From the NCBI GenBank assembly GCA_001314545.1, contig LIHN01000004.1:186001-250000 (forward strand): DNA of 64,000 nt, in the 5' to 3' direction. Every line of letters begins with the position of its first letter. Position 1 is the stretch's first letter. A model generated the notes under the pieces. That model was not told the DNA's origin. It did no database searches and saw only the letters and a list, made by a program, of their open reading frames with translations. The position numbers were made by a program, and so were the translations under genes. Positions 21,697-62,185 of this stretch are shown piece after piece. Origin of the DNA: Bacteroidetes bacterium HLUCCA01 (GTDB taxonomy: Bacteria; Bacteroidota; Rhodothermia; Balneolales; HLUCCA01).

Positions 21697-21860
21697 GGTT
21701 AACGCCTTTGGTATTAAATACGGCTGGATAAACCTACCGTCCGGTTAGATTCAATCGGGGGTAATACTGCCTTGGTTAATGCCATTGGTATTAAATATGG
21801 CTGGATAAACCTACCGTCCGGTTAAGTGCGATCGGGGTAACGCCATATGCGTTAATGCCA
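21697..21860 (+). repeat. imperfect 77-bp tandem repeat
   Basis: The segment at 21697-21750 recurs at 21774-21827, with about 50 of 54 bases identical, a period of 77 bp. A degraded third start (GTTAATGCCATTGG) appears at 21851. Further GCCATTGG copies lie at 21673 and 21857. The period is not a multiple of three and no plausible protein is encoded. It fills most of the 339-bp gap between the convergent rplS and mrp genes, in which I see no gene. Confidence 0.75.
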
Positions 21861-21943
21861 TTGGAAACCAATCCACCCGGATAATCCCAACAGGTCGATT
21901 CCTGGTGGTCTGCACCATGTTGTTCAATACCGAAGGAAATCCC

Positions 21944-31927: not shown

Positions 31928-33903
31928 AAAACACACACAAAAAATTTCTGAGTCTGCTGGCTGCTGAAATCGGGCAGGACGAAAAAATCACCTCCATCCA
32001 CCTGAACGGACTCATATCCGAAATTATCAATACCGTTGAAGAGGGCCGCTCTTATACCATCACAGGCTTCGGAACCTTTCTCAAAGATGGTCCCGAACTG
32101 CTCTTTGAGCCGGATTCCCGCCTTGCCGCCGAAATAAACTACAACTATGAGGGAATGGTCCCCATCGATGTAAATGAAGCAAAATCGGTTGTAGACGATG
32201 AGCCCGTTGAAAAGCCTTCAAGGCCAACCCGAAAGACGGATACCCTCATTGTAGACGAAGAGGTAGCCGGCGAGGAAGATCCTTTCGGGTTGCCGGATGA
32301 GGAAGCCGCAACGCCGTCGGTTCTGCTGAGCGGAGCTGATGAAGACGAAGAGAGGACTCAGACTAAGGTCGCGCAGACGGATGGCACCGATTCGGTTGAT
32401 GAAATAGATCCATTTGAAACGGATACAGCTGCTGAGAGCGGAGATACCGGATTGACTTCCTCTGACCAGGCTGATGTAAACGACCCATTTGAAACGGATG
32501 CAGCTGCTGAGAGCGGAGATATTGGATTGACTTCCTCTGACCAGGCTGATGTAAACGATCCATTTGAAACGGATGCAGCTGCTGAGAGCGGAGATACCGG
32601 ATTGACTTCTTCTGACCAGGCTGATGAGCCGGAAGGTCTTTCTGATTCTGCCGTGACGGACTCCCCCGGTCCCGTCAAAAAGGGAATTGTGTTTGAGTTT
32701 GATGAGGAAGCCGGTGTACTTGAATCCGGTGATGAGAACATAGAGGCCGTTCAGGATACCGCAGCGGACGAGGCAGCCGATGCGATTCCTTCAGCCCCCG
32801 GGTCTGATGATGCCGGCCGGGAGGATGATTCGACCCGAAAGGGACCACTTACCGGCGACCTTTCCGGGTCGGATTTGAGTGATCTGGATGATATACTCGG
32901 TAGCGAAAACCCAGCCAATTTGGACGATTCCGATGACCTGATTGGTTCTGCAGGTTTGGACGAGGAAGAAACACTTGCAGATGCAGCGGCTTCCAAAACC
33001 GTATCAAAGCCGGAGCCGGTAATTAAAGTGGGTAATATTGCCGGAAAACGGACACCGGGTGCCGAATCCGGTGTGAAAGCTGCATCCGGCGGTCAGGAAG
33101 GTGAGGAAAGCAGTGCACCGGCCAAAACCAGACCGCTTCCGGGTGATCGCAAAAACGGACAGTCTTCAACAACGCTTATAGCCGCTGCTGTGGCACTGGT
33201 TGCTGTTATATTCGGAGTCTGGTGGTTTTTCCTGCGCGATTCTGGTGCAGATGTCGCGGCATCGGCACCGGTTGCGGTCACTACACCACCTGCCCGACAA
33301 AATGAAACGGCTGTAAATGACGGAGCTGCGGAATCGGAGTCGGCCGGGGAACAGGATGAAGGTGAGCCGATGCAGGTGTCCGCGGAAAACCCGGATCAAG
33401 ACGGTGCTGCTATGCAGGCTGGAACAGGCGTTTCAGGCGACATTACATCCTCAACGGAGCAAAATACAGGCGCAGTATCAACAACCGGGGATGTTGCCGA
33501 AGATAATGCACTGGGTCAGGCAGAAACCAATCCGGCCGCCGCCGATGTTACCGACTGGCAGCAACCCCGGCCGGTGGGATCGCCGGTTGATTCTGATGAC
33601 AATCTTTCCGATCAGCAGGGTGAGGTTTCCCCGTTCGGTTTGCGTGGAACCGCCCAGCCCATGAATGGCCGTGTTTTCTCCATCGTAGTACACTCGCTTC
33701 CCAACCGAATTGACGGTAATGCTCAGTGCGATGAAATAGCCCGGCTTCGACTGCGTTGTGTAGTTGTGGAAGCTACCGTAAACGGCCGGATTACCTACCG
33801 GGTAGGAATCGGTCAGTTTGAAACCTATGCCGAAGCCCGTGAGCGTGTAAGCGAACTGCCGGAACCCTATCGCAGTCGAAATTTCCCCGCCAGAATTAAC
33901 TGA
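31924..33903 (+). CDS. HU-like, membrane-anchored SPOR-domain protein
   Basis: The 659-residue protein has a cytoplasmic HU-like domain (residues 1-90: LSLLAAEIGQDEKITSIHLN … TITGFGTFLKDG). A very acidic linker follows, including three tandem 25-residue repeats (DPFETD…SSDQADVN). A single membrane span lies at about 415-437 (LIAAAVALVAVIFGVWWFFL), then a second acidic linker, and a C-terminal SPOR domain (about 582-658: VFSIVVHSLPNRIDG … YRVGIGQFETYAEAR). SPOR domains bind denuded peptidoglycan at division sites, so the protein could link an inner HU module to the septal wall. It overlaps the small HU gene by 4 bp and stands just before the ExbB/TolQ trio. Confidence 0.85.
   Translation: MKNTHKKFLSLLAAEIGQDEKITSIHLNGLISEIINTVEEGRSYTITGFGTFLKDGPELLFEPDSRLAAEINYNYEGMVPIDVNEAKSVVDDEPVEKPSRPTRKTDTLIVDEEVAGEEDPFGLPDEEAATPSVLLSGADEDEERTQTKVAQTDGTDSVDEIDPFETDTAAESGDTGLTSSDQADVNDPFETDAAAESGDIGLTSSDQADVNDPFETDAAAESGDTGLTSSDQADEPEGLSDSAVTDSPGPVKKGIVFEFDEEAGVLESGDENIEAVQDTAADEAADAIPSAPGSDDAGREDDSTRKGPLTGDLSGSDLSDLDDILGSENPANLDDSDDLIGSAGLDEEETLADAAASKTVSKPEPVIKVGNIAGKRTPGAESGVKAASGGQEGEESSAPAKTRPLPGDRKNGQSSTTLIAAAVALVAVIFGVWWFFLRDSGADVAASAPVAVTTPPARQNETAVNDGAAESESAGEQDEGEPMQVSAENPDQDGAAMQAGTGVSGDITSSTEQNTGAVSTTGDVAEDNALGQAETNPAAADVTDWQQPRPVGSPVDSDDNLSDQQGEVSPFGLRGTAQPMNGRVFSIVVHSLPNRIDGNAQCDEIARLRLRCVVVEATVNGRITYRVGIGQFETYAEARERVSELPEPYRSRNFPARIN
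32407..32631 (+). repeat. three in-frame 75-bp tandem repeats
   Basis: Units at 32407-32481, 32482-32556 and 32557-32631 encode DPFETD[T/A]AAESGD[T/I]GLTSSDQAD plus VN, VN or EP. DNA identity between units is very high, which points to recent duplication in the linker of the SPOR protein. The unit is a multiple of three, so copy changes keep the frame. Confidence 0.92.
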
Positions 33904-61002: not shown

Positions 61003-61944
61003 TCAACGAATCAAAGAGGCGATTTCAGCGGCAACATCGTCGGGAGCCCGACGGGTGACATCGATAACACGCGCGGCTTTCCAGCGTTTGAACCAGGTTA
61101 CCTGTCGTTTTGCGTACCTACGTGTACTGGTCAGCATTTTTTCACGCATGGTTTCCAGGTCATACTCACCGCGCAGATGGGCAATGACTTCTTTATAGCC
61201 AACCGTTTGGAGGGCCTGTTCCTCACCGGTATAACCCATATCCAGGATAGATCGCGTTTCTTTGAGCAACCCATCCTGCAACATGGTGTTTATTCGTTGT
61301 TCAATTTGGTCGACTAAGTAGGCGCGGTTGCAGGTTAGTACAACAAGCAGGGTATCTTCAGGCAAACTGGAAAATCCCGCCTCCGAATGAAACGAACTGA
61401 ACGGCTTGCCCGTCTGCAGGTAGACATCCAGGGCACGAAATACCCGGTGCGGATTATACCCCTCCACGCGCTGCCGGTAAGCCGGGTCGACCCGCTCCAG
61501 CCACTCCAGCATAAACTCCTCTCCGTTTTCCTGCTCCTGATGCCTGAGTTTGATAAGATTGGGCGCGCAGGCCTGGGGGGCCTCATCCAGCGGCCAGACT
61601 ACCGACTGAATGTGCAGCGTGCTGCCTCCTACGTACACGGGAAGTCGGTTTTCCCTGCGGATTTCATCCTCCCAGTGTCGGGCTCGTTCCGCAAAACGCG
61701 CGGCGGTATCGTTTTCATGAAGCTCCAGCTCCGAAATGTTATAATGCCGGACGCCCTGCATTTCATGGGGCAACACCTTACCGGTTCCAATGTCGAGATG
61801 CCGATAACATTGGCGGGAATCGGCCGAAATAATACTCATCGGGATTACCTGAGCCAGATGCAGTGATACGGTAGACTTCCCGATGGCGGTTGGTCCGGCA
61901 ATCAGCATGCGCTTCAAAGAGACCGGGTGTTTTTGCGGGTTCAT
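61003..61944 (-). CDS. miaA: tRNA dimethylallyltransferase
   Basis: MiaA (313 aa) attaches a dimethylallyl group to A37 of tRNAs that read UNN codons. The P-loop is AGPTAIGKSTVSLHLA. IISADSRQCYRHLDIGTGK, VRHYNISE, VYVGGSTLHIQSVVWPLD and the C-terminal RRYAKRQVTWFKRW are diagnostic. It starts 33 bp from an octanucleotide repeat tract that could influence its promoter. It is a single gene, divergent from the aminotransferase. Confidence 0.96.
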   Translation of the reverse strand: MNPQKHPVSLKRMLIAGPTAIGKSTVSLHLAQVIPMSIISADSRQCYRHLDIGTGKVLPHEMQGVRHYNISELELHENDTAARFAERARHWEDEIRRENRLPVYVGGSTLHIQSVVWPLDEAPQACAPNLIKLRHQEQENGEEFMLEWLERVDPAYRQRVEGYNPHRVFRALDVYLQTGKPFSSFHSEAGFSSLPEDTLLVVLTCNRAYLVDQIEQRINTMLQDGLLKETRSILDMGYTGEEQALQTVGYKEVIAHLRGEYDLETMREKMLTSTRRYAKRQVTWFKRWKAARVIDVTRRAPDDVAAEIASLIR

Positions 61945-61976
61945 TGGCGTTATTAACCTTGAAATGCTTATTTTTT

Positions 61977-62063
61977 CACAGCGTCACAGCGTCACAGCGT
62001 CACAGCGTCACAGCGTCACAGCGTCACAGCGTCACAGCGTCACAGCGTCACAGCGTCACAGCG
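61977..62063. repeat. octanucleotide tandem repeat, about 11 copies
   Basis: CACAGCGT is repeated perfectly ten times, plus seven of eight bases of an eleventh copy (87 bp). The tract lies in the divergent region between miaA (33 bp from its ATG) and the aminotransferase (123 bp from its ATG). Perfect short repeats of this type change copy number by slippage. There are no unique spacers, so it is not a CRISPR array. Confidence 0.97.
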
Positions 62064-62185
62064 ATTATGCTCTGACAACGTACGGAATGCGGGCGCAGAC
62101 ATAATGCCGGTCCTCGTCGGCGTGCCGATAGCCCTCTGCTCAGGTGAGCTGCTGCACAATGTACCCAAAATCAGGAATCTCTACC

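Follow-up and report, generated by a model that had tools for sequence, protein, structure and literature searches.

A perfect 11-copy octanucleotide repeat between miaA and a divergent aminotransferase gene in Bacteroidetes bacterium HLUCCA01

The repeat and its surroundings

In the analyzed stretch of the HLUCCA01 genome (64,000 nucleotides, hereafter the window), miaA, encoding tRNA dimethylallyltransferase, and an aminotransferase gene are transcribed divergently, and the space between their starts holds a tandem array of an eight-nucleotide unit (Table 1). The miaA product passes the TIGR00174 equivalog cut-off (240 bits vs. 149). The aminotransferase resembles SufS-type cysteine desulfurases, yet scores below all NCBIfam cut-offs. 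From reading them by eye, we take the ORFs that follow miaA on its strand to be homologues of purS, purQ, and lptB; their order is retained in two relatives of the same genus, G002 and G001. The gap of about 220 bp between miaA and the purS-like ORF was searched for promoter-like and terminator-like sites, and none were found.

Table 1. Features of the miaA–aminotransferase intergenic region and its flanking genes (window coordinates)
Feature	Position	Strand	Support
miaA, tRNA dimethylallyltransferase, 313 aa	61003..61944	-	TIGR00174; PF01715, E 9e-68
miaA-proximal spacer, contains AAAATAAGCATTTCA common to a same-genus relative	61945..61975	-	alignment with the relative (L039)
perfect tandem array, 11.0 copies of TCACAGCG (minus strand: CGCTGTGA)	61976..62063		TRF, period 8, score 176, 100% matches
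aminotransferase-proximal spacer	62064..62185	+	good alignment with the relative is limited to the ~45 bp next to the gene
divergent class-V aminotransferase / cysteine-desulfurase-like protein, 490 aa	62186..63658	+	PF00266, E 8e-42

All eleven units, as counted in one assembly, are identical, and among the short-unit arrays that TRF found in the window, this one has the highest score. The perfect period-8 stretch is 88 bp long, while the longest one in 100 Markov-1 simulations of the window was 19 bp; therefore, the tract is real, a short tandem repeat of head-to-tail units beyond chance expectation. This confirms the original prediction of eleven perfect 8-bp copies next to the miaA start and upstream of the divergent aminotransferase, with two corrections. 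The predicted start at 61977 describes the same array in another phase, and the distance to the miaA ATG is 31 bp, not 33 bp. On the other side, 122 bp separate the tract from the aminotransferase ATG.

The length of the tract exceeds the k-mer sizes common in short-read assembly, and hence an assembler may miscount the copies. It is, however, very improbable that an existing array was misjoined or given a wrong copy number in this way, as both of its flanks run into the gene pair that is syntenic in a relative.

The tract lies outside the reading frames of both genes, and in-frame stops block read-through from it into either of them. A frame switch of miaA is excluded, as the first stop upstream of its ATG is at plus-strand coordinate 61986, within the tract; for the aminotransferase, the same is excluded by a stop at 62129, between the tract and the ATG. 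Two small plus-strand ORFs that would encode the repeat (61883–62104 and 61890–62075) extend into miaA on the antisense strand and are unsupported. We also rejected an RNA hairpin, since the intergenic region folds worse than its shuffled versions (z 2.9), and a single-strand DNA fold, as neither strand does better than shuffles.

Relatives and other repeats

Only one relative, G002 of the same genus, has the same divergent miaA/aminotransferase pair, its miaA being 79% identical; in G001, a different gene is located upstream of miaA. In the alignment of the intergenic regions of HLUCCA01 and G002 (locus L039), stretches at both gene ends are conserved and the array is absent. The block AAAATAAGCATTTCA, common to both genomes and adjacent to miaA, starts exactly where the array ends. 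In G002, a promoter-like sequence TTGCAA-N18-TAAAAT ends within this block, and the array occupies the place of its −35-like half. The miaA-proximal spacer may possibly comprise a −10 region and a leader.

More broadly, we compared 30 miaA loci, and none of the 29 others had a notable 8-bp array upstream of the gene; the 2.1-copy octamer upstream of miaA at L016 is at the noise level. The word CACAGCGT, repeated exactly three times, was found in one of 129 genomes of the order, HLUCCA01 itself (0/128 others), and YACAGCGT in triplicate in one of 394 sampled genomes of the phylum, again HLUCCA01 (0/393 others). The latter result gives no support to the idea that the octamer is common in Bacteroidota. 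Looser octamer arrays of the ACA type are present in 15 of the 394 genomes, including HLUCCA01, and those examined are mostly intergenic. A search of plasmid and phage records yielded no match to the tract. In one phage contig (L123:2241–2422), the same octamer (TGACGCTG) is repeated 22.8 times, and TGACGATG variants are present at either end. We treat this as a coincidence, because a permuted octamer also matched three viral contigs (three other octamers matched none).

The abundance of repeats in general was estimated in samples of three genomes. Tandem arrays with the TRF score of at least 100 numbered 21 in 804 kb of the HLUCCA01 genome (26 per Mb), 10 in 348 kb of G002 (29 per Mb), and two in 400 kb of the more distant relative G025 (5 per Mb). 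Thus, the HLUCCA01 sample is rich in tandem arrays, and these have many different periods. Long-period examples in the window are a 75-bp direct repeat at 32410–32626 (2.9 copies, 95% alike), located within a crude ORF call, and a 77-bp intergenic repeat at 21697–21884 (2.5 copies, 80% alike), an example of the numerous long-period arrays in this genome. Elsewhere in the genome (L047:8798–8985), 16.2 copies of the 12-bp unit GCGCTCACGGCT also lie within a crude ORF call. The tract near miaA is the sole period-8 array listed by TRF in the 0.8 Mb sample, and in the first 404 kb no other unit of at most 8 bp has more than three perfect copies.

The unit itself is not dispersed. Counted as a word on its own, the octamer is found 20 times in 0.8 Mb of this genome, with 17 occurrences expected; no matches of 1.5 copies were found outside the tract in this sample, and the three-unit word, allowing for up to three mismatches in 24, occurs at no other place in the genome. 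The lack of enrichment argues against a dispersed regulatory motif, and there is no sign of a regulon based on this word. The units could still form an operator or an iteron-like array of regulator binding sites, given their intergenic position and regular 8-bp spacing. This, however, seems improbable: in addition to the lack of enrichment, sites spaced by 8 bp do not share the same helical face, and the perfect identity of the units, together with their absence from the relative, indicates youth rather than function.

Short arrays in this order often accompany genes of four-helix-bundle proteins (23S rRNA IVP, PF05635): among 23 tested loci, arrays of 7–8 bp units were present upstream in nine and downstream in ten, several of them being inverted. 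In G025, a comparable octamer, TTCAGGAG (8.9 copies), adjoins such a gene. Hence, the tract might be an orphaned arm belonging to an element with a PF05635 gene at its core. We give this explanation hardly any credence, as the tract has no PF05635 gene within a few hundred base pairs, or anywhere in the window, TRF detected no inverted partner array in the window, and the unit is not found elsewhere in the genome. Moreover, in other genomes only one locus with an ACA-type octamer array contains such a gene.

The PF05635 loci have several features of their own. In the Balneolales relatives (L127–L156), where these genes are scattered through the genomes, 7–8 bp arrays flank the gene on both sides in seven of 23 cases, compared to the background array rate of 0.013 per 400 bp in G025. 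At several loci the flanking arrays are reverse complements of each other, as at L139 (1448–1481 vs. 1949–2042, 30 bp exact), and the genes are placed as if within a hairpin-forming unit. The sole PF05635 copy found in the HLUCCA01 genome, on contig C13 (L142, G000:C13:15835–16095), is broken by two stops.

Origin of the tract and its possible effect on miaA

The best account of these observations, to which we assign a probability of about 60%, is that the tract is a recent 8-bp microsatellite that has grown by slippage in one lineage, and has nil or modest effect on either gene. It is favored by the identity of the copies, the array-free relative, and the absence of the repeat from the other miaA loci and from the other genomes of the order and the phylum. 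The lack of octamer enrichment, the many other arrays in the genome, the absence of folding, and the in-frame stops also agree with it. What counts against it is that the only such short-unit array in the sampled sequence happens to lie in the most sensitive kind of location, flanked by the starts of two divergent genes. Replication slippage in this non-coding DNA would account for the growth of the array, and since its units are perfect, the length of the tract is probably variable within the species.

The original prediction went further, suggesting that changes in the tract length turn miaA expression up or down. Its premises, the intergenic position between divergent starts and a perfect, slippage-prone octamer, have held. 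The proposed switching of miaA remains a hypothesis, and the one relative sharing this gene pair lacks the tract. Still, it is possible, although unlikely, that the tract regulates expression as a contingency locus, with the copy number tuning miaA, and perhaps the divergent gene as well, via the spacing of promoter-distal sites or, with a promoter on the far side of the tract, via the 5′ leader. In addition to its position between the two starts, the tract is placed where the relative has a promoter-like sequence, and repeats with such effects have precedents in other bacteria, considered below. The idea is of interest because the dose of MiaA affects frameshifting and the proteome in Escherichia coli (PMC9303304). 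On the other hand, the tract is not conserved, and a scan of the region for sigma-70-like promoters detected no minus-strand site; matches to the Bacteroidota-type promoter TAnnTTTG were also absent from the region.

Moreover, the arrangement of the units would itself buffer a core promoter. If the conserved −10-like block is the core of the miaA promoter, the nearest three perfect units would always provide the same upstream DNA, and the gain or loss of units would shift only the distance to the sequence beyond the tract. As the units are perfect and flush with the block, the −35/−10 neighborhood would then be independent of the copy number, down to approximately three units. If, instead, the miaA promoter is situated beyond the tract, the array would be a part of the leader, resembling in this the clbR tract described below.

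In its strongest form, the regulatory explanation becomes a slippage-driven rheostat, in which the octamer copy number would set the dose of MiaA and thereby the level of i6A37 and the decoding of UNN codons proteome-wide, in subpopulations of cells. We regard this as quite unlikely. If, however, the tract did vary in length and alter the MiaA dose, then a single contingency tract would influence translation as a whole, and not just one surface protein. We know of no example of this kind, and a literature search for a contingency tract acting on global translation found none. At present, the tract is a clear, testable, and ordinary lineage-specific repeat, and a candidate marker for strain typing.

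Comparison with known repeat systems

Heptamer direct repeats TAACTGA, which can occupy as many as 169 places in one genome, have been described in Beggiatoaceae, Cyanobacteria, and some Bacteroidetes (PMC4679880). Like the octamer, they are short direct repeats located between genes and close to start codons, and Bacteroidetes are among their hosts. However, their sequence is different, and they are dispersed, whereas the octamer array is found at one place only. In Mycobacterium tuberculosis, the copy number of tandem repeats in the promoters of dop, lpdA, and cysG has been proposed to tune expression (PMC12817950). These repeats are also located upstream of genes, specifically in promoter regions, but they differ from the octamer, and their variation is seen within populations.

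In Neisseria meningitidis, changes in the length of the tetrameric TAAA tract at the nadA promoter alter the spacing of operators (PMC2791445). The tract described here similarly lies upstream of a promoter, in this case a candidate one, and its length would alter only the spacing of distal elements. Unlike it, the nadA tract consists of tetramers, its operators and repressor are known, and the controlled gene is a virulence gene.

A further parallel is the octanucleotide VNTR (ACAGATAC, 2–20 copies) of the E. coli pks island, situated in the 5′ UTR within the divergent clbR–clbB intergenic region, where 20 copies yield approximately twofold the reporter signal of five copies (PMC7364221). While variation among isolates and the reporter effect have been measured for clbR–clbB, the tract near miaA is known from the sequence of one genome; the units are unrelated in sequence, and miaA is a housekeeping tRNA-modification gene. 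The architecture is nevertheless shared, with perfect tandem copies of an 8-bp unit between divergent genes, near one of the start codons. The octamer tract is a new instance of a well-known type of repeat, private to this genome.
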